Shown one piece after another: positions 26,188-40,203 of a stretch of 64,000 nucleotides of DNA. The translations under genes and the position numbers were made by a program. Position 1 is the first letter of the stretch; each line of letters starts with the position of its first letter. Source of the DNA: Bdellovibrio sp. SKB1291214 (lineage in GTDB: Bacteria > Bdellovibrionota > Bdellovibrionia > Bdellovibrionales > Bdellovibrionaceae). Location: NCBI RefSeq assembly GCF_002209355.2, contig NZ_CP106855.1, positions 434,001 to 498,000 of the forward strand, in the 5' to 3' direction. The notes under the pieces were generated by a model that saw only the letters and a program-made list of their open reading frames with translations, ran no database searches and was not told the origin of the DNA.

Positions 26188-26391
26188 GCCCGCTCCTATT
26201 TGGTAATCTCCCCTCCGAATTCTTACTTTTCTGAAAAGTCCGCGAACGTTCCGAAGGAAAAGTTAGGGAACACCATTCACCAACGTATAGAGTTCGACTT
26301 GAATTGAGTCGAATGACAAAGATTTAGTTTAACGAACTATTCCGTTTGTTACTCTTGTAATCAGTCTATTTCTTTTTGTTTGGGGGATGAA

Positions 26392-28515
26392 TTGAGAAAG
26401 GCCATCATCGCAAAAGCCTTGCGCTACGGAGTGAAGCCCTATCTGGTGATAGCTGCTTCCACAGTGACAATACTTTCATTCCAAAACTGTGGTGAAGGAT
26501 TCAACGTTATCCAGAATTTGCAAAGTGTCGCTGGCACCAATCAACCTGAATATATTGAAGAGTCGGCAGAGTTTGCGCAAGGTCGCGATTTATACAACCA
26601 AAACTGCGCCGGCTGCCATGGAGTATTTGCTAACAGTACAATCTCTGGTAAATCTCTCATCGATATAAAGGCAGCGATCGCCAATGTGCCGCAAATGTTT
26701 GCCTTTCAAGCACTGTCTGAAACTCAGTTACAACTCATTGCTCTGGCGTTAAATCCCGGCTCACCAGGAACTGTGACGCCGACGCCAACACCGTCGCCAT
26801 CGCCGACAGCAACGGCAACAGCGTCGCCTTCACCTACGACGACGGCCACCGCCACTCCTTCTCCGACAGTGTCACCGTCGCCAACGGTGACCGTGCCTGC
26901 AAATACATTTGCGTGTCAGCCGGGTGAGGACCCCGGCGTCAGAGATTTCCGCCGCCTCTCACGTCGGGAATACTTGCAAACCTTAAAACTTTTATCTTAT
27001 GGCCGCGTTAATATCGATAGTCTTCAAAGCGATATCGATAACTTACCAGCTGACGTTGTAACAGGCGTTTTCGACTCTACCGATGCGACCGTTTCTGCCG
27101 CTCACGTGGAGGCGTACCTGAATCTGGGTAAAAAAATAGCAAATCTATTTGCAACAAGCTCCACTTGGAGAGCGGCTGCAATGAACAACTGTAACACCAC
27201 CAATGGTATGACAGAGACTTGTTGGACAAGCTTTTTTAATGGCTTTGGTCGTTTGGTCTTCCGTCGTCCTTTAACAACAGCGGAACAGCAAATTTATAAA
27301 GACCTTTATAATTCTGAGTTCGGTGGAAATCTAAATGACGGTTTAACTGTGGCTATCATGGCAATGCTTCAATCGCCAAATTTTATCTATAAAAATGAAT
27401 TGAGTGGTACTCCTGTCAATGGCCGCGAGGACCTAGTCAAAATCACTGATTACGAACTGGCATCGCGCATCGCTTTTCTGGCGACAGGACGTGGGCCTGA
27501 TACTGCTTTAATGAATGATGCCGTCAGTGGAAACTTGGCAACTGTCGAAGGTTATAAAACCGCAGTGAATCGAGTGTTTGCCACAGCGGAATCTAAAGAA
27601 CACATCGCCGAATTCTATAATCAGTGGCTGGGTATCAATCGTATGCCATCTTCCAATCACTCCACTTGGTTCCTAGGAAATGTTCCCCGTGCTTCGATTC
27701 AGCCAGAAGCCATGCAAGAAATGAGGGACTTCACGAACTACTTTACCTACTCGGTGGCCGGTAGTTACAAAGACATGATGACGTCGTCGACAAGTTTTAC
27801 TCAAGGTCAGGCGTTAACACTGATTTACGGTGCAGCTAAGGGTGAAGCCCTTTCACCGGAAGAGCGTCCCGGGTTGATGAGTCGTGTGGGCTTCATGTTT
27901 AGCCCCACTGATAACTCGAGCTTAGTGCATCGCGGACTGGTGATTCGCAGAAATATCCTCTGTGATTCAATACCACTTCCGACTATTGCTGCGGATGAGA
28001 AAGAACTATTTGCTCCGCCCGTTCCAGATCCAACGCAGTCGCAACGTCAGCAGATTGAAACTCGCACCTCACCCGTGCGCTGTCAGGCCTGCCATTCGTT
28101 GATCAATCCGATGGGCTTTGTGATGGAAAATTACAATGCCTTTGGTAAATATCGCACCGTCGAAAGTATTTTCGATGCAAATGGAAATATCCTGGCAAAT
28201 CACCCCGTGAATGCAAAAGTAAAACCGAACATCGAATCCGCGAATGAAGCGGAGGTGAACGGTCTTAAAGAAATGTCGATAGCCATCGCAAATTCCTCCA
28301 GAGGCCCTGCCTGCATGGTCAAACAATGGAGCACGTACACAATGGGTCGAGCGGTTACGGCTGCAGATAATTGCGCGATGAACACCAGCTTTTCGCAGTT
28401 AACTGATCCAGGCAAATCAAGTTCCAGCGGTGATCAACCAGGTACTATTTTAAATATGATTAAATCCCCTGCGTTCGACGCTAACTTCCGTTTGCGTAAA
28501 CGCGGTGCTCAGTAA
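26392..28515 (+). CDS. Exported cytochrome c / DUF1592-DUF1588-DUF1585 protein
   Basis: About 707 residues. TTG 26392 is taken as start because GGGGGA ends 4 bases upstream; the frame opens at TTG 26380. The N-terminal hydrophobic segment ends in LSFQNCGEGF, possibly a lipid-attachment Cys though not a canonical lipobox. Next a small cytochrome c domain with heme motif CAGCH (residues 72-76), a Thr/Pro/Ser linker, then DUF1587 (RRLSRREYLQTLKLL), DUF1592, DUF1588 (LVIRRNILCDSIPLPTIA) with a second heme motif CQACH (residue 564), and DUF1585. Such proteins are common in Planctomycetes and myxobacteria and always pair with DUF1552 proteins, as here. An oxidoreductase role outside the cytoplasm is inferred; the substrate is unknown. 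Confidence 0.9.
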   Translation: MRKAIIAKALRYGVKPYLVIAASTVTILSFQNCGEGFNVIQNLQSVAGTNQPEYIEESAEFAQGRDLYNQNCAGCHGVFANSTISGKSLIDIKAAIANVPQMFAFQALSETQLQLIALALNPGSPGTVTPTPTPSPSPTATATASPSPTTTATATPSPTVSPSPTVTVPANTFACQPGEDPGVRDFRRLSRREYLQTLKLLSYGRVNIDSLQSDIDNLPADVVTGVFDSTDATVSAAHVEAYLNLGKKIANLFATSSTWRAAAMNNCNTTNGMTETCWTSFFNGFGRLVFRRPLTTAEQQIYKDLYNSEFGGNLNDGLTVAIMAMLQSPNFIYKNELSGTPVNGREDLVKITDYELASRIAFLATGRGPDTALMNDAVSGNLATVEGYKTAVNRVFATAESKEHIAEFYNQWLGINRMPSSNHSTWFLGNVPRASIQPEAMQEMRDFTNYFTYSVAGSYKDMMTSSTSFTQGQALTLIYGAAKGEALSPEERPGLMSRVGFMFSPTDNSSLVHRGLVIRRNILCDSIPLPTIAADEKELFAPPVPDPTQSQRQQIETRTSPVRCQACHSLINPMGFVMENYNAFGKYRTVESIFDANGNILANHPVNAKVKPNIESANEAEVNGLKEMSIAIANSSRGPACMVKQWSTYTMGRAVTAADNCAMNTSFSQLTDPGKSSSSGDQPGTILNMIKSPAFDANFRLRKRGAQ
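26762..26902 (+). repeat. Low-complexity Thr/Pro/Ser-coding linker
   Basis: Imperfect tandem codons such as ACGCCGACG, CCGTCGCCATCG and ACGGCGACA code for a T/P/S/A-rich spacer between the cytochrome domain and the DUF1587 domain. Such tracts are prone to slippage and may be O-glycosylated. Confidence 0.8.
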
Positions 28516-28524
28516 GAGGTTCGT

Positions 28525-30021
28525 ATGCATTGGAATAAACTTTCACGCCGTCAATTTTTAAGAGGTACCGGTGGGTTTGCATTAGCCCTTCCGTTTCTTC
28601 CCTCCATGCTGCCTCAAGCAGAAGCCCAAACGGGACCGACTCTTAAAAAACGCTTTATCGCTATCCACAATGGTCACTGTCAGGCCGTCGAGCACTGGTT
28701 GCCAGATCCTGCAAAATTCACATGGAATGAAAAGCAAACCTATGCTCGCGAAGTCGCGCTTTCCGCAATTCCAAACACGATGTCACCAGTTTTGGGCAGT
28801 CAATTTGATTCCCTGCGCTCTAAACTGTTGATTCTGTCGCGCCTTGATCCTCTTTCAAAAACGCCGAATCACAATGCGGAGTGCATGCTGACCGGGGGAG
28901 TCCTCTCGGAAGCGACTTCAAGCATTGACCAAGTGATCGCTAAATTCCTTTATGGTGGCTCGCCGTTAAATCTATATGTGAAGTCCGTGGATGACGGAAA
29001 TTACACGGGGGCTTCGCACGTAAGTGTTTTAAATAAACAATACGTCCCTGGACAGTTCAATCCGTCGGCGGTGTTTTCAAGCATGTTTGGCAGTGGGCCC
29101 ACCACAACACCGACGAATACAGCAGATAAGCTGACCCGCCGTGATATTTTGGTGGTGGATAAAGTTTATGCTGAATACGTTAATTTACGCTCGAACAAGC
29201 GTCTGTCTAAAGATGACTTAGCTCGCGTGGAGCAACACATGGCTTTGATCAATGATCTACAAAAGAAATTAAATGCCAACGTTTCAGCTCCGCCTGCAAT
29301 GACCTGCAATTCCCCGACAGGACCATCCACATCACCAACGAAATCCAGCAACCCAGCGGATTATCAAGTCGTGATTGATCAGATGTTTGATGTCATCGAG
29401 GTGGGAGTTAAGTGCGGAAAAATCCAAGTTGCCACTTTGATGATGCACGTTTACGACTATTTCAGCGGTTCCGTAAACTTTGTTCCCGGCATCACGGGAT
29501 CTAATCGCTTCCATGAAGACATCAATCATGCGGGTACCAGTGAATTGCGCGCGATGAAACTTGCTATGATGACTTTTTTTGCAAATCGCGTTTCACGATT
29601 TTTGACCCGCATGGATGTCGTTGAGGATTCAACAACCGGCTCGACCTATTTGGATAATTCTTTGATCCTTTGGGGGAACGACCAAGGGACCACAAAAAAT
29701 ACCAATGCCCATAATTCAGTGAACAATCCTGTCTTGCTTGCGGGAAGTGCAGGTGGTTATTTAAAACCGGGTCGCCATATTGATTATGGACCGTCCTATG
29801 GAAATTTGCGCCGCCCTATTGGAGGAGATGAAGGCGACTATAAACGCGGTCGTCCATACAATCAGCTTCTCATCACCATCATGCAAGCAATGGGAATGCA
29901 ACCAGCAGATTATGAAGTGGGTGCGACTCAAGGATACGGTGTGTACGGCACCTTAGAATCCAGCTATACGTATTTGGGAGTCAATCACCGCCGTGAAATT
30001 CTGCCACTGATTAAAGGCTAA
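28525..30021 (+). CDS. Tat-exported DUF1552 protein
   Basis: 498 residues. A twin-arginine signal opens the protein (LSRRQFLRGTGGFALALPFL then AEAQ cleavage), so it is exported folded, often with a cofactor. The rest matches DUF1552: FIAIHNGHCQAVEHWLPD, HNAECMLTGG, FHEDINHAG and ILWGNDQG segments, similar in layout to the sulfatase-like DUF1501 group. It starts 9 bases after the cytochrome/DUF1592 gene, with AGAGG before its ATG, so the two form an operon and probably a complex. Substrate unknown. Confidence 0.9.
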   Translation: MHWNKLSRRQFLRGTGGFALALPFLPSMLPQAEAQTGPTLKKRFIAIHNGHCQAVEHWLPDPAKFTWNEKQTYAREVALSAIPNTMSPVLGSQFDSLRSKLLILSRLDPLSKTPNHNAECMLTGGVLSEATSSIDQVIAKFLYGGSPLNLYVKSVDDGNYTGASHVSVLNKQYVPGQFNPSAVFSSMFGSGPTTTPTNTADKLTRRDILVVDKVYAEYVNLRSNKRLSKDDLARVEQHMALINDLQKKLNANVSAPPAMTCNSPTGPSTSPTKSSNPADYQVVIDQMFDVIEVGVKCGKIQVATLMMHVYDYFSGSVNFVPGITGSNRFHEDINHAGTSELRAMKLAMMTFFANRVSRFLTRMDVVEDSTTGSTYLDNSLILWGNDQGTTKNTNAHNSVNNPVLLAGSAGGYLKPGRHIDYGPSYGNLRRPIGGDEGDYKRGRPYNQLLITIMQAMGMQPADYEVGATQGYGVYGTLESSYTYLGVNHRREILPLIKG

Positions 30022-31428: not shown

Positions 31429-32256
31429 ATGGATATCCAAATTCAAAAGATCAAAACAGTCCTTAAAGAACAGCTAAAAAAACGCAAGATGACTTATGAG
31501 GATTTAGCTAAAGACCTTCAAGTGTCTGTTCCAACAATCAAACGTTGGATGGGCGATCACGACTTGGGACTGCAAGATCTTTTCAGAATTTGTGATATTC
31601 TGGATCTGACTCTTTCGGATCTGCACGCATTGAGTTCGAATGTCAAAAACTCTAAAACTCCGAATCGCTTGACGGATGAACAACAAAAGTTCTTAGCAAA
31701 GAACATGAACTATTTGTCCTTCTTTCTGCAAATTCACGACGGCAAAAAGCCTCAGGAAATTGCCGAGCGCTATAAATTGACCAAACTATCCGTCGACAAA
31801 TATTTGGTGAAGCTTGAAAACTTAGGCTTGATTAAAGTGACAGGTAAACTGCGAGTTAAATCCACTTTTGATGATCAAGTTGATTTTGGGGATGGCCTTT
31901 TAGCTAAGACCTATTACAAGCGCTGGATCGATGGCACTGGAGAATTCTTTACGCAAGTGATCACTCACGCACTCACTAATGAGCAGTCCATTGACGAAAA
32001 AACACGTGATCACAAAACTCATGCAACTTACTCGATTCAAAGTGTCAGACTCACGAAAGAAAGCTATCTAAAGTGGGCGACAGAAAATGCAGCGGCTATC
32101 ATGCAACTTACCGCAATCAGCAAGATTGAAGAGAAGGCTTACAAAGACGACGAGCTTTTCACCGCAGTGATTTTAAATGCACACACATCGTTAAAAAAAG
32201 ACTCCAAATTCCTAACAATGATCGATGAGTTCGCCGGAAAAATTGAAAACATATGA
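31429..32256 (+). CDS. XRE-type transcriptional regulator with second winged-helix region
   Basis: 275 residues. N-terminal Cro/C1-type HTH at about 8-65 (LKKRKMTYEDLAKDLQVSVP then TIKRWM), followed by a second DNA-binding-like region at about 105-145 (KPQEIAERYKLTKLSVDKYL plus VKLENLGLIKVTGKLRVKS, a winged helix pattern). The C-terminal 130 residues are of unknown fold and could sense a ligand. It sits between the 34-residue peptide and the receiver/phytochrome block, 180 bases before the latter, so it may or may not regulate it. Layout recalls TIGR02147-like regulators common in Bdellovibrio, but the match is not firm. Confidence 0.82.
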   Translation: MDIQIQKIKTVLKEQLKKRKMTYEDLAKDLQVSVPTIKRWMGDHDLGLQDLFRICDILDLTLSDLHALSSNVKNSKTPNRLTDEQQKFLAKNMNYLSFFLQIHDGKKPQEIAERYKLTKLSVDKYLVKLENLGLIKVTGKLRVKSTFDDQVDFGDGLLAKTYYKRWIDGTGEFFTQVITHALTNEQSIDEKTRDHKTHATYSIQSVRLTKESYLKWATENAAAIMQLTAISKIEEKAYKDDELFTAVILNAHTSLKKDSKFLTMIDEFAGKIENI

Positions 32257-32436
32257 CATGCCTTTAACCCCCCGTAGTATGGCATAACGCACCTATTCTA
32301 AATGTGGTTTAACAGCTTTATGTCAACACTGTGTTATTCTCATTACATGAAAGCAAACTAAAAAACGTTTCTTCACTTTTCTATTACTCATTGGCAAAAC
32401 TTCCTGTAAGAAATTTTCATTCTTTGGGAGGCAGCT

Positions 32437-32796
32437 ATGAAGAAAGTTCTAGTAATCGAAGATTCCAGAGACCTTTTGACACTTTACGTGCGCTACCTCA
32501 ATGAGATCGGATGCGAAGTCACGTCCGCAACATCCGCCCACGAAGCTCTTCATATTCTTGAAGACAGCACTCCAGATCTTATTCTTATGGATCTCACATT
32601 TCCAGATATGCCGACGATGGATTTTTATATGCAAATTTCTGCAAATCCAAAGTGGGAAGCCATCAAAAAAATACTGGTAAGTGGTCGCGATGACCTTCAT
32701 ACTTGGATGGACGTGTTCAATACGTCTCAAGGCCTTCGCAAACCTGTGCAAAAGAGAGATATCGTACAGGCGGTCAATAAGGAATTAAATCAGTAG
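32437..32796 (+). CDS. Single-domain response regulator
   Basis: 119-residue CheY-like receiver. Acidic pocket ED at residues 8-9, phospho-acceptor Asp52 in LILMDLTFPD, Ser in KILVSG and the conserved Lys in GLRKPVQK. No output domain. It begins the light-sensing run: the hybrid kinase starts 19 bases later. It could be the exit of the phosphorelay or a phosphate sink. GGGAGGCAGCT precedes the ATG. Confidence 0.93.
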   Translation: MKKVLVIEDSRDLLTLYVRYLNEIGCEVTSATSAHEALHILEDSTPDLILMDLTFPDMPTMDFYMQISANPKWEAIKKILVSGRDDLHTWMDVFNTSQGLRKPVQKRDIVQAVNKELNQ

Positions 32797-32815
32797 CTGA
32801 AGAGTTGGGAGTATC

Positions 32816-35800
32816 GTGCCTCATCGTGATTTACAGACGACGTCCGATTGGATTATCGGCGTTGGTGCTTCTGCAGGTGGGTTAGAAGCCATTTCGGCGT
32901 TCGTCTCCAAATTTACTACAGAATTTCAAGGTTCCATCGTCGTCGCTCAACATCTCGCTCCGCACTCAAAGAGTATGTTGACTGAGCTTATAGCAAAGCA
33001 AGCGACGCTTCCGGTACTGGAAGCGCGCGACGGTGAAAAATTAGCTTCATCCACGATTTATATAGTACCTCCGAACTATGATGTCGCTATCTCCAACAGA
33101 ACAATTCATTTATTGCCGGTTGACTCACACACCAGACCCAAACCGTCTGTAGACGATTTCTTTTTGTCTTTGGCTAAGAATCACGCACCTAAAATTGTCG
33201 GAGTTATTTTATCTGGAACTGGGTCCGATGGCTCTGTGGGAGTTCGAGCCATCCATGATGCCGGCGGAATTACCATCGCCCAAAGCGGCGACAGCGCCAA
33301 GTACGATGGCATGCCTCAATCGGCTGTAGAGACTTCCTGTATTGATTCAATTTTGAATCCTGAAGAGATGAGCCAACAGATCCAGGAATATATCACCAGA
33401 CAATCTCAACCTGCCAGATCGAACTTTTCTGCAGAAATACTGAGAGAGTGTCTGAAGTTCATTCAGGAAAAAACCGGTTCAGATTTCAGTCTGTATCGCC
33501 CTACTACTGTCGTGCGCAGACTGCAAAAGCGCATGGGGTTTTTGAAAATTGATCATATCGAGGACTATCTTAAATATTTAAAAGACAGCTCCAATGAAGC
33601 GCACCTTCTCTCCCAAGATCTTTTGATCAGTGTGACTTCTTTTTTCCGCGACAGAGACGCCTTCGATACTTTGAAAAAGACCCTGACAGAACTTATTTAT
33701 AGTAAACGGATGCCGTCAGAAATTCGCATGTGGGTGGCAGGATGCGCAACGGGGGAAGAAGCTTATTCCATCGCCATGCTCATGTCAGACTTGCTGGACC
33801 GACTGGACAAGAATTTTCCTGTTAAGATATTCGCAACGGATTTGGATTATGAGGCTTTATTAGAAGCTCGTAACGGCGTTTATAAAAAATCGGAAGTTGC
33901 AAACATTCCATCAGAGTACTTGCATCGCTACTTCATCCCACGTGACGGTGAAAAATTTGAAGTTTCAAAAAAGCTTCGAGAAATGGTCTTGTTTGCAAGA
34001 CAAGACATGATTCACAATCCTCCGTTTGTAAAACTTGATTTTATCTCGTGCCGGAATGTTCTAATTTATTTTGAACCGGAACTTCAGAAAAAAGTCTTAG
34101 ATATATTCCATTACGCCTTGGGACCTTCCGGAATTTTATTCCTGGGTAAATCTGAATCCCTTAGTTCAGCGGCAACTCTTTTTGAAACCTTAGATAAAAA
34201 ATCTAAGGTCTTTAGAAAACTGAATGTTCCATCGATTATTCATAGCACGCGCAATCAGACCGGAAACTCGATGAGTTATTCCGATATTGTGACTGTAAAA
34301 AAACGCCCCTCTGATGCAACCCTGCTCGAAAAAGGGATGTTACGTTTATTACGCGACTATCATCACTGTGCCGTGATTACGGACATCGATACGAACATCA
34401 TCCAAGTAATCGGTGATGTTTCCCATTTTGTGGGTTTTTCAAGTACCTCGTCTGACTTTAGATTAGTGAATTTATTGCCTCGCGAAGTCAGCCTGGAACT
34501 ACCTATCTTGATTCGAAAATGCCGCGGCAATGAAGGTGTTCACCGCAGCCAAATTTATAAAGATAAAAATAATAAAAAAAGTGCGATGCGCATGGTGGCC
34601 CGCGCACTGACAACCGGTTCCGACGCGGAATACTTTTTGATTGATTTTGAAAACATCAAGCAGCGTAAAACAGCGGAACGAGAAGTCCAAGGTCCGGTAA
34701 CCTCCGTTGATGCACAAAAAATCCTAGAAATTGAGCAGGAACTTTATTCCACGCGAGAACACTTGCAAACAGTGATCGAAGAACTGGGCGTGGCTAACGA
34801 AGAAATGCAGGCGCTTAACGAAGAACTGAGTTCTGCCAATGAAGAACTGCAAAGTGCCAATGAAGAGTTAGAGACTACCAACGAGGAACTGCAAAGCAGT
34901 AATGAAGAGCTCGTGACGGTCAATGACGAAATTATCGGAAAATCCCACGAGCTTAAAGAATTAAATATCAACCTTTTGAACGTTCAAGAAAGCATCGGTT
35001 CGGGGCTGATCGTCGTTGATGAAAAACGCCGTATTCTTCGTTTTAACAAGCCGTCACAAAGTATTTTTAGAATATCTCTGGCTGACATCGGAAAAGATGT
35101 CACGACACTTTCCACGAATTTAGAGCTTCCGAACTTTAAAGATTTAATCGACGAAACTATTTCAAAACAAAAAAGTTCTGAATCGTTTTGTGAAAGCTAC
35201 GACAAAATCTATCAGTTGCGTTGCCAACCTTTCTTAGATGAAGTTCAAAATGTTTTGGGTGCGATTTTACTATTCGTGGATACCACAGAGCTTGTAAGAA
35301 CCAGTGAAAAACTTGAAGTGCGCGAACAGCAGATCCGCTCGATCGTGGAAGGCTTTTCAAATCCAATTACGGTTAAAGACCACTTCGGAAAATACATCCT
35401 TGTAAACCAGGCTTTCCGCGATTTCTTTGGATTAAAGGACACCGATGTCGCTGGCAAATCCGACAGAGAACTATTTTCCGAATCCACTGCGATCTCTCTG
35501 CGGGATACGGATCTTGAAGTTATTCTGACGGGACAGGCGATAAAAAAAGAAGAAATCTTCTCTCACAACGGTAAAGAATCCGTATTTTTAGTAAATCGCT
35601 TCCCGCTTTTTGATCGCAACCGACCTTACGCAGTTTGTATGATTGCAACTGACGTGACGATACAAAAAAATGCACAGCACGAACTGCGTGAAAGCGAATC
35701 GCGCTATAAAGCCATCATTGAAGATCAAGCAGTTTTGGTCTGCCGTCATTCACCGAATGGACGCTTGTTATTCGTTAACACGGTTTTTGCAAATCAATTT

Positions 35801-37642
35801 GGCGGCAATGCTGCAAGTCACCTGGGTCACTTTTTCCATGAATATATGAATATTCAAGATCAAGCCCGCGTGAAGCTTGAGCTTAACAGCTTGAATCCCA
35901 AAGATCCCGTGGCGCAATCGGAAGTACGTATCTATCGCGAAGACAATTCTTTGCGATGGGTTCGTTGGTTCCACCGCGGTATCTTCAATGCTGACGATGA
36001 ACTTAAAGAAATTCAAAGCGTCGGCTTTGATGTGACAGACTACCGTGTTCGCGCTGACCGTTTCTTAGAAAACGAGTCCGTCTTCACAACTATCTTTAGT
36101 AATACCTCCGAAGTCATCTTGATCCTTCGCCGCGTGGCCGGGGATTATCAAATTGAATATCTAAATAATGCGGCATCGAAGCTCTTGGAAAAACGCCAAG
36201 GGGAACTTGTCGGCAAGAAATTGCGTGAAGTACGTACAGCAGAACGCGCGTTTGAGTTGATCCAACGCTTTAATGAAGTTCTGGATAAAAAGACATCTTT
36301 CAGTCTGGATGAGCACTGGAATATTCCAGGTGTCAATGTTCACATGTCTAGCACGCTGTTACCTGTACCGGATGCCAATGGCGAACTGACTCGGGTGGCG
36401 ATGATCAGTAAAGATGTCTCCGCTTACAAATCGATCGAAATGGATTTGCGAGCAGCCAAAGAAATTGCCGAAGAAGCGAATATTACAAAAAGTAACTTCC
36501 TGGCTTCTATGAGCCACGAACTGCGCACACCACTGAACGTGGTTTTAGGGATGTCGCACCTTTTACAGGAAACTTCCCTCAATCAAGAGCAAGCTTCGTA
36601 TGTTTCAAGTATTGACCGATCCAGCAAAGCACTGCTTTCCCTGATCGAAGATATTTTAGATATCACCAAAATCGAATCCGGAAAAATCACGCTGACTCAT
36701 CAAGCATTTAATCTTTCGACATTAGTTTCTGATGCTGCTTCTATGTTTGAAATTCAGTGCCAAAGCAAAGGGGTCCAGCTTAAAACCACCATCGATAAAC
36801 AGGCAGACTGCACTGTTATCGGCGATCCGGGGCGTCTGCGTCAGATCATTGTCAACCTTTTAGGGAATGCGCTAAAGTTTACCGATCGCGGTCATATCAC
36901 TTTACGATTAATTGTTCGTCCAAGTGAAAATGCCGGCGAAATTCGCGTGCGATGTATCGTCGAAGACACCGGAATAGGTATCGCCAAAGAACATCATTCA
37001 AAAATCTTTCAGCGATTCTCTCAGGTTGAGTCTGGACATTCGCGCCGTTACGGCGGTTCGGGCTTGGGCTTGGTCATTTCACGCCAAATCGCGACTCTTA
37101 TGAATGGGGATATGGGTTTTAGCAGTGAACCTGGTAAAGGCAGTATCTTCTGGTTTGAAGCCGCCTTGCAAATCGGTACTCGCAAACAAGTTGAAGAAGA
37201 AACAGAACGCCAACGTTTTATCAACCAACCACCGAATATCGAAGTTAAAGGTTTAAAAATCCTTGCGATCGATGACAATGAGGAAAATCTTTATATCATC
37301 GATCTATTCTTAAAACGTTTAGGCCACATCCCGACCAAAGTTGCTTCCGGTAAAGAAGCCCTGGCACTGATCGAAAAGGAAAAATTTGATATTGTTCTCA
37401 TGGACATTCAAATGCCGGAACTTGATGGTTATACTCTGACCAAAAAAATCCGCGCCCTTGACGGCGAGAAATCGGAAGTCGTGATTATCGCTTTAACGGC
37501 GAATGCTATGTCCGGAGACGCGGAACGATGCAAAGAAGCTGGAATGAATGATTACATAACCAAGCCAGTGCGCATTGATATTCTAAAAAACACTATTGCC
37601 CATTGGGCGCCAAGTTTAAAAGGAATCGAAAATGAACAATAA
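32816..37642 (+). CDS. CheB-CheR-PAS-histidine kinase-receiver fusion protein
   Basis: 1608 residues, GTG start after GGGAG. Domains in order: CheB methylesterase (about 12-190) with catalytic Ser19 in GASAGG, His46 and Asp138 in GTGSDG; CheR methyltransferase (about 205-475) with SAM loop GCATGEEAYS near 308 and SCRNVLIYF; a PAS-like region; a heptad coiled coil (NEELSSANEELQSANEELET, about 650-710); three to four PAS domains (730-1215); HisKA with His1234 in SHELRTPLN; HATPase with NLLGNALKF, DTGIGI and GGSGLGL; receiver with Asp1530 in LMDIQMP. All key residues are intact. No chemoreceptor gene is near. The stop overlaps the phytochrome gene by 11 bases, so kinase and photoreceptor are translated together. 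Confidence 0.95.
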   Translation: MPHRDLQTTSDWIIGVGASAGGLEAISAFVSKFTTEFQGSIVVAQHLAPHSKSMLTELIAKQATLPVLEARDGEKLASSTIYIVPPNYDVAISNRTIHLLPVDSHTRPKPSVDDFFLSLAKNHAPKIVGVILSGTGSDGSVGVRAIHDAGGITIAQSGDSAKYDGMPQSAVETSCIDSILNPEEMSQQIQEYITRQSQPARSNFSAEILRECLKFIQEKTGSDFSLYRPTTVVRRLQKRMGFLKIDHIEDYLKYLKDSSNEAHLLSQDLLISVTSFFRDRDAFDTLKKTLTELIYSKRMPSEIRMWVAGCATGEEAYSIAMLMSDLLDRLDKNFPVKIFATDLDYEALLEARNGVYKKSEVANIPSEYLHRYFIPRDGEKFEVSKKLREMVLFARQDMIHNPPFVKLDFISCRNVLIYFEPELQKKVLDIFHYALGPSGILFLGKSESLSSAATLFETLDKKSKVFRKLNVPSIIHSTRNQTGNSMSYSDIVTVKKRPSDATLLEKGMLRLLRDYHHCAVITDIDTNIIQVIGDVSHFVGFSSTSSDFRLVNLLPREVSLELPILIRKCRGNEGVHRSQIYKDKNNKKSAMRMVARALTTGSDAEYFLIDFENIKQRKTAEREVQGPVTSVDAQKILEIEQELYSTREHLQTVIEELGVANEEMQALNEELSSANEELQSANEELETTNEELQSSNEELVTVNDEIIGKSHELKELNINLLNVQESIGSGLIVVDEKRRILRFNKPSQSIFRISLADIGKDVTTLSTNLELPNFKDLIDETISKQKSSESFCESYDKIYQLRCQPFLDEVQNVLGAILLFVDTTELVRTSEKLEVREQQIRSIVEGFSNPITVKDHFGKYILVNQAFRDFFGLKDTDVAGKSDRELFSESTAISLRDTDLEVILTGQAIKKEEIFSHNGKESVFLVNRFPLFDRNRPYAVCMIATDVTIQKNAQHELRESESRYKAIIEDQAVLVCRHSPNGRLLFVNTVFANQFGGNAASHLGHFFHEYMNIQDQARVKLELNSLNPKDPVAQSEVRIYREDNSLRWVRWFHRGIFNADDELKEIQSVGFDVTDYRVRADRFLENESVFTTIFSNTSEVILILRRVAGDYQIEYLNNAASKLLEKRQGELVGKKLREVRTAERAFELIQRFNEVLDKKTSFSLDEHWNIPGVNVHMSSTLLPVPDANGELTRVAMISKDVSAYKSIEMDLRAAKEIAEEANITKSNFLASMSHELRTPLNVVLGMSHLLQETSLNQEQASYVSSIDRSSKALLSLIEDILDITKIESGKITLTHQAFNLSTLVSDAASMFEIQCQSKGVQLKTTIDKQADCTVIGDPGRLRQIIVNLLGNALKFTDRGHITLRLIVRPSENAGEIRVRCIVEDTGIGIAKEHHSKIFQRFSQVESGHSRRYGGSGLGLVISRQIATLMNGDMGFSSEPGKGSIFWFEAALQIGTRKQVEEETERQRFINQPPNIEVKGLKILAIDDNEENLYIIDLFLKRLGHIPTKVASGKEALALIEKEKFDIVLMDIQMPELDGYTLTKKIRALDGEKSEVVIIALTANAMSGDAERCKEAGMNDYITKPVRIDILKNTIAHWAPSLKGIENEQ

Positions 37643-39200
37643 TCCTGAACTAAGCCTGATTTTAGGCGACTTGGCCGAGTGTAATAACGAAGCGATTCAT
37701 CTTTCCGGAGCCGTGCAAAGTCATGGCTGTGCTATTTTCTTTACTTGGCCAGACAGACGAATTGTCGCTCATTCCGCCAATTGTGCTTCCAAATTAAAGA
37801 TTCCCACCAACCAGCTGGAACAGGGTCATTTGGGATTTTTGTTTGATACCAGCATCCTTATTAAAATCGAAAATTTGATTCGAAAGGGAAACCTGGGTGC
37901 GGGACGCTATTTCACTTGCGAATTGGACGGAATAAAAACAGACGCTTATTTGTATGAAACATACGGCGTCTATTGTGTGGAGCTTGAGCCAGGACAAGTA
38001 ACATCCGTCGATGAAGAGCCCTTTCAAGCTGAATTCATTTTACAGCAGTTCATGTCAGAACTAAAAGACACCCGCGAGATCAAAGAGGCCGCCAACATCA
38101 CCTGCAAGTATGTTCGCAAAGCCACCAATATTGATCGTGCGATGATGTATAAGTTCATCCCTCCAGCTTGGCATGGAGAGGTTGTGGGCGAAGATCGTGT
38201 GCTTGGTGCTCATTCATTCATGAACCACCGTTTTCCTTCCTCCGATATACCAAAACCAGCCCGCGACCTTTACCTGAGAAATAAAGTGCGCTTAATCAGC
38301 GATTCTCAAGCCGATATCTCGCCTATTATTCCCAATTTAAATCCGATGACTCGCACAAAATGGAACTTATCGGATTCTCGTCTACGTTCCGTGGCTCCCA
38401 TTCATTTAGAATATTTGCGAAATATGGGTGTCAGGGGCTCAATGTCGTTTGCCGTTATTGTTAAAGGTGAGCTGTGGGGTTTGATCGCATGCCATCACAT
38501 GTCCCCTTTTAATCTGTCACACGAAATTCGCGCGATCTGTGCGGTGATGGCTGATGCTTTCGCGGCCCATGCTTCATTGATTGAACTTTTCGAAGGACAG
38601 ACTGTTAAATCTGTTTTCGATGCGAAATTGCGAAAAATCGTAGAGTCTGTGATTTCGGTGAAAGATCCTGTGGATGCTTTATTCCGTCAACATTCCTATT
38701 TAATGGATATGTTTTCGGCAACCGGTTTAGCTTTGTGTGGTAACAAGCGAGTCGATATCGCTGGCATCACTCCCCCAAGTGCGATGCTAAAAAATCTAGC
38801 CTCCGGCCTGCGTGAGCTTTTAGAGAAATCTGAAAAGCCCTATATCGCCACTGCCAATTTAGCGGAAATGCTTCCAGCCTTTGACAAAATTCGCGAAATC
38901 GCCTGCGGGATTCTTTGCGTCCCATTGAATGATGAAGACAACTCTTTGTTAATTTTATTCCGTCCCGAGCTGATAAAAGTCATTACATGGGGAGGAGATC
39001 CAAATAAGAATCTAGAGAAGAAGAATTTCTCTGGACGTATTAACCCTCGCAATTCATTTTCATCTTGGGAAGAAGTCATCCGAAATAGCAGTAAGGGTTG
39101 GGCTCCCTACAAAATTGATGGTTTAATGTTTTTGAAACAGGTCGTGGTCGACACTGTCGCGCAAAAAAACTTCCTGATTTCTCAACTGACCGCAAAATAA
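37632..39200 (+). CDS. bphP: Bacteriophytochrome photosensory core (PAS-GAF-PHY) without output domain
   Basis: 522-residue red/far-red photoreceptor. PAS: AECNNEAIHLSGAVQSHG, with Cys17 at the bilin-attachment position of bacteriophytochromes. GAF: DRAMMYKFIPPAWHGEVVGE, then FPSSDIPKPARDLYL with the conserved DIP Asp, SVAPIHLEYLRNMGV with the chromophore His, and LIACHH. PHY: INPRNSFSSWEEVIR contains the tongue motif PRxSF. The chain stops after PHY; there is no histidine kinase, GGDEF or other output. It overlaps the upstream hybrid kinase by 11 bases and is followed by heme oxygenase, which makes its biliverdin. Signal transfer to the neighbouring kinase through protein contact is inferred. 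Confidence 0.93.
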   Translation: MNNNPELSLILGDLAECNNEAIHLSGAVQSHGCAIFFTWPDRRIVAHSANCASKLKIPTNQLEQGHLGFLFDTSILIKIENLIRKGNLGAGRYFTCELDGIKTDAYLYETYGVYCVELEPGQVTSVDEEPFQAEFILQQFMSELKDTREIKEAANITCKYVRKATNIDRAMMYKFIPPAWHGEVVGEDRVLGAHSFMNHRFPSSDIPKPARDLYLRNKVRLISDSQADISPIIPNLNPMTRTKWNLSDSRLRSVAPIHLEYLRNMGVRGSMSFAVIVKGELWGLIACHHMSPFNLSHEIRAICAVMADAFAAHASLIELFEGQTVKSVFDAKLRKIVESVISVKDPVDALFRQHSYLMDMFSATGLALCGNKRVDIAGITPPSAMLKNLASGLRELLEKSEKPYIATANLAEMLPAFDKIREIACGILCVPLNDEDNSLLILFRPELIKVITWGGDPNKNLEKKNFSGRINPRNSFSSWEEVIRNSSKGWAPYKIDGLMFLKQVVVDTVAQKNFLISQLTAK

Positions 39201-39210
39201 GGAGCCAAGG

Positions 39211-39780
39211 ATGGAACACAAACCCGCTGTGATGATGACTTTGAAAGAATCCACAATGGATTTACATAAAGAAATCGAACAATACATGCCGGTGTTCCGT
39301 TCTGACTTTGACGTTTCAAAATACCAGGACCTTCTTGGAAAAATGTATAACTTCTATTCTGCCTTCGAGAACAATTTAAAAAGCTCCTTAGACTCTCAGG
39401 GCGTCTCCGAATTTTATCAAGACCGCTTCAAAACACCTCGTATCGAGGCTGATTTGCAATCACTTGATGCGAAGCCTTTGGTTAAACCCGTGACGGACCT
39501 ACCTTCCATCGACAGCCTTCCCGCGATTGCAGGGGCTTTATATGTGATCGAGGGCTCTTCGTTAGGTGGCCAGGTTATTTCGAAACATCTGCATGAAAAT
39601 TTAAAGTTAGAACCCGAGCAAATTCGGTTTTTCGGGGGCTATGGTCCGCAGACAGGCAAACGCTGGCAAGAGTTTCAAAAATGGATGGGCACTTTGGATT
39701 TCAATGAAGAGGACACCCAGGTGGCTGTTGCTTCTGCCAGAGACACCTTTAGGTCCATGTTGAATTGCCTAAAAAACTAA
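39211..39780 (+). CDS. bphO: Heme oxygenase (biliverdin-producing, phytochrome-linked)
   Basis: 189-residue HemO/BphO-type enzyme that opens heme to biliverdin, CO and iron. Proximal His19 in MDLHKEIEQYM; distal helix glycines in YVIEGSSLGGQVISKHL; FFGGYGPQTGKRW near the C-terminus. AAGGAG precedes ATG 39211, 10 bases after the phytochrome stop. Its place in the operon says the product is chromophore, not only iron release. A small G+C hairpin (about 39785-39808) follows without a clear T run. Confidence 0.94.
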   Translation: MEHKPAVMMTLKESTMDLHKEIEQYMPVFRSDFDVSKYQDLLGKMYNFYSAFENNLKSSLDSQGVSEFYQDRFKTPRIEADLQSLDAKPLVKPVTDLPSIDSLPAIAGALYVIEGSSLGGQVISKHLHENLKLEPEQIRFFGGYGPQTGKRWQEFQKWMGTLDFNEEDTQVAVASARDTFRSMLNCLKN

Positions 39781-39946
39781 GTTTCCAGCGGCTTTTAAAC
39801 AGAGACCGCTGATGTTTCGTTAAAGTGTTTCGTTTTGAGACTCAATTTTTTCTTTTTCGTCTAAGTTTTCCGCAAATTCGCCTTTGGTCCAGGACATTTT
39901 CAGCCGATAGGTCTAGTAGCTGTTAGTAATGGGTAAGGAACTTAAG

Positions 39947-40144
39947 ATGATCAAATCAATCGCTCTTGGACTTGTAGGTTTGTCGGTGATGGCTCAACTT
40001 CTCTCTTTCGCACCGATTTCTTCAACAGAATTGAAAATTGAAGCGTCTCCTAAGACCGCCTTCAAAACTGAAGGGGCATGCATGTCGCGCATTCTGGATA
40101 AGGCTCCAAGAATGGCTGCCAAAGAGATTTGCCGACTTGGTTAA
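39947..40144 (+). CDS. Small exported protein of unknown function
   Basis: 65 residues from ATG 39947 (AAGGAAC upstream). Signal peptide IKSIALGLVGLSVMAQLLSF then a short basic mature part with two Cys (GACMSRILDKAPRMAAKEIC) that may form a disulfide. Not recognised. Monocistronic, closed by a strong terminator. Confidence 0.65.
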   Translation: MIKSIALGLVGLSVMAQLLSFAPISSTELKIEASPKTAFKTEGACMSRILDKAPRMAAKEICRLG

Positions 40145-40175
40145 ATGTTTCCGCTCTCGCAAATACTTAGAAATA

Positions 40176-40203
40176 AAAAGGGACCACTAGGGTCCCTTTT
40201 TTA
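40176..40203. terminator. Bidirectional terminator
   Basis: AAAAGGGACC / GGTCCCTTTT with loop ACTAG; T run continues to 40202 and overlaps the stop codon of the convergent GST gene. Confidence 0.92.

Follow-up and report, generated by a model that had tools for sequence, protein, structure and literature searches.

Locus organization

The window, a stretch of 64,000 nucleotides from Bdellovibrio sp. SKB1291214, carries four genes on its + strand between positions 32437 and 39780, in the 5' to 3' order receiver, hybrid kinase, phytochrome and heme oxygenase. The receiver gene (32437..32796) encodes a single-domain response regulator of 119 aa (Pfam Response_reg, 4.6e-16), and the large gene behind it (32816..37642, whole, with a GTG start) encodes a CheB-CheR-PAS hybrid histidine kinase of 1608 aa, as judged from its ORF and Pfam matches. 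The third gene (37632..39200) encodes a kinase-less bacteriophytochrome of PAS-GAF-PHY type, 522 aa long and recognized by Pfam, PDB matches and a structure model, whose Cys17 codon lies at 37680; the last (39211..39780) encodes a putative heme oxygenase of 189 aa that would supply biliverdin (Pfam Heme_oxygenase, 1.2e-19). A gap of 19 bp separates the receiver and kinase genes, the kinase and phytochrome genes overlap by 11 bp, and 10 bp lie between the phytochrome and heme oxygenase genes. The ORFs thus confirm the layout described in the initial annotation, with its 11-base overlap, a receiver ahead of both genes and the heme oxygenase behind them. Rfam gave no match at the locus, and scans for promoters and terminators did no better there than the chance level.

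The phytochrome

The Pfam architecture of the 522-aa protein is PAS_2-GAF-PHY, with no domain past PHY, and its PHY domain is the only one in the whole genome. The chromophore pocket is complete, with Cys17, DIP (residues 205-207), His258, Tyr261, His288 and PRxSF (472-476), so the residue check and Pfam agree with the earlier description of a chain that has Cys17, DIP and PRxSF and stops after PHY. The AlphaFold2 model is a canonical photosensory core (pLDDT 87.7, pTM 0.83) that terminates in a helix at residues 492-521, and the kinase is absent from the chain. Among solved structures it is closest in fold to PsBphP, DrBphP and Agp1 (PDB fold E about 1e-45), and the top PDB sequence match spans residues 1-512 (1.5e-81). 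In domains, fold and pocket residues this is a bacteriophytochrome core, but it lacks the same-chain kinase that defines a phytochrome histidine kinase.

The CheB-CheR-PAS hybrid kinase

Pfam finds in the kinase, in order, CheB, CheR_N/CheR, PAS_10, several PAS domains, HisKA, HATPase_c and Response_reg; Pfam and the structure model together give the fuller order CheB-CheR_N/CheR-(PAS-like)-coiled coil-PAS_10-PAS x3-HisKA-HATPase-receiver. The CheB methylesterase domain (residues 14-189, 32855..33382; Pfam 3.4e-52) has Ser19, His46 and Asp138, and these catalytic residues are kept in all 15 of the partner proteins compared (15/15). The CheR_N and CheR methyltransferase region follows (residues 213-463, 33452..34204; Pfam 1.5e-11 and 5e-56), and its motif residues are kept in the partners compared with one Gly-to-Ala change, in G030. 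The catalytic residues being intact, the proposal that the CheB and CheR domains are able to act appears sound as far as sequence can tell. A tentative PAS-like domain at about residues 503-614 (34322..34657), unseen by Pfam, is suggested by how helices and strands follow one another in the AlphaFold2 model. Behind the coiled coil come PAS_10 and three further PAS domains (residues 722-1205, 34979..36430; Pfam), HisKA with His1234 and HATPase_c (36488..37165; Pfam 6.3e-21 and 1.8e-27), and a C-terminal receiver domain with Asp1530 (37259..37597; Pfam 1.8e-25). Thus the signatures of a hybrid kinase, the HisKA His, the HATPase boxes and the receiver Asp, are all present.

Pairing in Bdellovibrionota

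PHY domains are present in 27 of 369 genomes of the phylum Bdellovibrionota. The kinase was searched for among 197 relatives with its middle part (residues 500-1215); an alignment had to serve as query, as a contig scan with the single sequence gave no match. Orthologues at E<=1e-149 occur in seven of the 197 genomes (G000, G015, G032, G091, G099, G103 and G118), the next-best match being 1e-52, and these are exactly the genomes that have this clade of kinase-less phytochromes. In every genome showing both genes they are adjacent on the same strand, kinase first, with a spacing that ranges from overlaps of 1 to 26 bp up to an 18-bp gap (the value for G118 depends on the start chosen). Two further pairs are found in G271 and in the MAG contig L076, which is apparently the same contig as G272. 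Contig ends cut the partner gene in G091 and L076, and in G099 the pair is spread over two contigs, the partner running off one and the phytochrome starting at the edge of the other. These phytochromes form one clade (support 100/99), as do their partners (100/100); the identity matrices of the two correlate weakly and uninformatively (r = 0.33).

The heme oxygenase gene adjoins the pair in the window and in G015, G118, L201, L076, L261, L263, L266, L267 and L270, and its place varies: downstream in the window and G015, upstream in G118, and on the opposite strand beside the pair in L201 and L076. A receiver gene adjoins the pair in the window, L201 and L076, and is thus recurrent and not universal in relatives. 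Conservation of the whole four-gene order, for which the initial annotation had called for a genome search, is therefore not seen; only kinase-then-phytochrome is constant, and heme oxygenase and receiver shift. Its view of the giant protein as the phytochrome's dedicated partner fares well, given that both occur in the same seven of 197 genomes, adjacent and on one strand, with the partners forming a single clade. The same pair occurs in a Silvanigrellales MAG (L081), where, however, the CheB-CheR protein stops after a PAS domain, with no kinase or other output.

Two neighboring arrangements were seen in passing. G030 has a row (L029:3315-10306) of an Hpt protein, a CheB-CheR-ATPase protein, a hybrid kinase and a kinase-less phytochrome, possibly a complete phosphorelay. 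A second phytochrome of G091, a full-length hybrid kinase (L074:4399-7533), is encoded convergently with the split one.

Pairs in Gammaproteobacteria and other phytochromes

In a sample of 398 Pseudomonadota the closest matches to the kinase middle region have E-values of 1e-41 to 1e-71. Twelve such loci were fetched, and at four of them (G748, G649, G383 and G768) an output-less phytochrome lies directly downstream of a large CheB-CheR-PAS-GGDEF-EAL protein; the large protein of G383 is in two frames and the phytochrome of G768 is frameshifted. A further PHY search of 369 genomes of the class of G748 added three more. In G1007 and G844 a CheB-CheR-PAS-GGDEF-EAL gene is followed by the phytochrome gene and then the heme oxygenase gene; in G908 (L267:7956-14784) PAS-GGDEF-EAL, CheB-CheR, phytochrome and heme oxygenase occupy separate neighboring frames whose boundaries are possibly assembly errors. 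The nudF-yqiB-cpdA-yqiA-parE-like genes that flank the locus in two of these seven genomes suggest that all seven are Gammaproteobacteria, and a heme oxygenase gene often accompanies their pair. The seven phytochromes group with that of G030 in a second clade (100/99), and the backbone of the phytochrome tree is weak on whether the two clades of split phytochromes have a common origin. In a first tree the G030 phytochrome had appeared as an isolated long branch; it joins the second clade once the gammaproteobacterial members are added.

The comparison set of about 72 other phytochromes from several phyla (L078-L151 minus L081 and L126) continues in frame well beyond PHY, and at none of these roughly 72 loci is a CheB-CheR fusion next to the phytochrome. 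L126 (Phyllobacterium, 528 aa) had seemed kinase-less, but an HWE-type kinase adjoins it in a shifted frame, so it was left out of the count. The short PHY frames of G363, G347, G313 and G423 were also set aside as split phytochromes, being contig-edge or probably frameshifted copies.

The system is thus not confined to the Bdellovibrio group and is wider than first thought. The idea that its output is a separate giant phosphorelay protein holds for the separate protein but not always for the phosphorelay, which is replaced by GGDEF-EAL in Gammaproteobacteria and by nothing in L081. As outputs vary (kinase, GGDEF-EAL, none), the constant core is a stand-alone phytochrome with CheB-CheR, and the output is swapped. 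Gene order and phylogeny show this pairing to be dedicated and recurrent.

A probable light sensor in two proteins

We favor, with a probability of roughly 0.7, a two-protein light sensor in which the separate phytochrome contacts the CheB-CheR-PAS protein and biases its output. Light control by contact is probable because a sensor without a signalling half is encoded directly behind the gene of the giant protein in two phyla. Heme oxygenase, as its family suggests, would make biliverdin, which the phytochrome, with its intact pocket, would bind covalently at Cys17, toggling between Pr and Pfr. The output-less phytochrome would then touch the CheB-CheR-PAS protein translated just ahead of it and, in this organism, bias the hybrid kinase and the kinase's own receiver, with the small 119-aa receiver as a possible phosphoryl acceptor; in Gammaproteobacteria the biased output would be GGDEF-EAL, that is, c-di-GMP. 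The phytochrome could also act on proteins other than its CheB-CheR neighbor.

The NEEL coiled coil and its proposed methylation

Between CheR and PAS_10 the kinase has a coiled coil of NEEL heptads (residues 638-712, 34727..34951), a proposed methyl-accepting segment picked out by its conservation and by lying inside a continuous helix predicted at residues 632-728 in the AlphaFold2 model. It is the best-conserved segment of the kinase (mean pairwise identity 0.81 versus 0.72 for HisKA and 0.57 for CheB). The sequence SSANEELQSA within it fits the methylation consensus of chemoreceptors; the strict consensus gives only one exact heptad match per orthologue, at the same site, and relaxed matches repeat along the coil. 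The strict triple NEE heptad is found in 19 of the 197 genomes, and in the cases fetched CheR lies upstream in the same chain every time except in G091, where a contig end cuts the chain. Since CheB-CheR proteins with neither kinase nor GGDEF, among them L081 and L254, have the coil as well, coupling to a kinase does not explain why it is so conserved. The G908 CheB-CheR protein, in its own frame in a possibly frameshifted assembly, has no coiled coil, which argues that methylation in cis is not universal. The model of the kinase fragment is weak (pTM 0.38) and cannot place the coil relative to CheR.

It is plausible that the coil is the methylation substrate of the CheR and CheB of the same protein. 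More speculatively, CheR would add and CheB remove methyl groups on the Glu pairs of the adjacent coil, and such methylation may give the sensor a chemoreceptor-like adaptation or memory. The wider picture of a modular family, in which phytochromes dock on a self-methylating CheB-CheR hub with built-in adaptation and a swapped output (phosphorelay or c-di-GMP), we offer tentatively, at somewhat less than even odds. A precedent for methylation in cis is the hybrid kinase RsbK of Bacillus cereus, similarly controlled by methylation of its signalling helix by RsbM (PMC4574943); there the methyltransferase is a separate orphan, with neither methylesterase nor phytochrome.

Alternatively, the CheB and CheR of the partner, their catalytic residues being intact, might act in trans on array chemoreceptors, so that light would alter methylation and swimming and the kinase or c-di-GMP output would be a parallel branch. 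The genome has three more CheR proteins, all stand-alone, which makes a methylation-based chemotaxis system probable; these, however, are already able to serve receptors, the coil that follows CheR within its own protein is a more obvious substrate, and an unsystematic look noted no chemoreceptor, CheA or CheW at the loci examined. We consider action in trans unlikely.

CheB-CheR-coiled coil-PAS proteins of about 1100 aa also adjoin hybrid kinases of about 860 aa (L254:5950-9315, L256:155-3517, L258:7513-10860 and L259:5124-12022), which recalls the hub idea in a setting that has no phytochrome. The L254 protein, the one of these whose domains were typed, has no output domain.

Chromophore supply and loss of the pocket

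Heme oxygenase is encoded in nine of the ten searched genomes with split phytochromes, and the pocket residues are intact in nearly all split phytochromes of both clades (G768 and G908 are only partly readable). The sole genome of the ten without heme oxygenase is G032, which is 99% complete, and its phytochrome alone has Tyr in place of Cys17, DIA in place of DIP and His in place of Tyr261. That these residues and the enzyme went missing together fits bilin as the input in the other members. It also suggests that the kinase-phytochrome pairing can outlast covalent bilin binding, and since the pair persists in G032 despite the damaged pocket and the missing heme oxygenase, light is maybe not the input everywhere. 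The phytochrome core might even be a chromophore-optional regulatory subunit of the CheB-CheR protein, with light not the main input here; the G032 pair speaks for this, but with the pocket kept in all other members and a heme oxygenase so frequent, often beside the pair, we regard it as quite improbable. The G032 protein (L073:10001-11590) is possibly a light-blind descendant that is still paired with its kinase.

It is very improbable that phytochrome and kinase are mere operon neighbors with other partners each (for example a transcription factor or a non-cognate regulator), for although adjacency of genes alone is no proof of contact, the same pairing has turned up in both phytochrome clades and in two phyla, combined with different outputs, and both genes move jointly to different chromosomal sites.

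Relation to known systems

Phytochromes are usually viewed as one-chain switches in which a helix twists the attached output. The canonical bacteriophytochrome histidine kinases (DrBphP, PsBphP, Agp1 and SaBphP2) have the same PAS-GAF-PHY fold and pocket, often with an adjoining heme oxygenase gene, but carry a kinase or other output in the chain; here nothing follows PHY, and a CheB-CheR protein encoded by its own gene is the partner. Haloarchaeal sensory rhodopsin and Htr resemble our pair in joining a separate photoreceptor to a methylatable transducer, and differ in having a membrane rhodopsin, the chemotaxis kinase CheA and separate methylating enzymes. Methylation of that transducer is discussed in PMC5812497. 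In PapB-PapA a stand-alone BLUF photoreceptor likewise regulates an effector in another chain, a separate EAL protein (PMC8846402), but the sensor is a blue-light flavin protein and there is no CheB-CheR. A CheB-CheR hybrid, RC1_3878, is mentioned for Rhodospirillum centenum (PMC2890560), and such CheB-CheR-PAS fusions share the fused methylesterase and methyltransferase. Those fetched here typically have the NEEL coil and PAS chain, as does the window kinase; unlike it, most have no phytochrome neighbor. The open-access literature searched (subscription journals lay outside its scope) contained no account of output-less phytochromes partnered by CheB-CheR, of the NEEL heptad or of a phytochrome partner for CheB-CheR fusions.

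Judged by its sequences, the gene pair is real, dedicated and recurrent, and it is an unusual modularity of known kinds of protein, phytochrome and CheB-CheR fusion, for which we infer the mechanism. Naturally split pairs would let the contact between photoreceptor and effector be studied and rebuilt, and would serve as ready-made two-part near-infrared tools. The CheB-CheR link raises the question whether the fused enzymes methylate their own coil and thereby give memory to kinases and c-di-GMP enzymes.

A variable chromosomal site

Only two of 24 genomes of the genus carry the unit. In three others (G011, G012 and G022) both flanking genes are present, HTH at 77-79% identity and GST at 86-90%, but the space between them is filled by other genes, and the photoreceptor unit, including the receiver, is absent there; in G015 the unit has different neighbors. 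The four genes of the locus therefore appear and disappear together. The HTH gene upstream (31429) had been considered a member of the unit, but G011, G012 and G022 have it as part of their backbone. The HTH-GST interval (32256-40201 of the window) holds different genes in each close relative examined and is thus a variable chromosomal slot; beside it, at 26380-30021, a DUF1592-type cytochrome and DUF1552 protein pair is kept in relatives.
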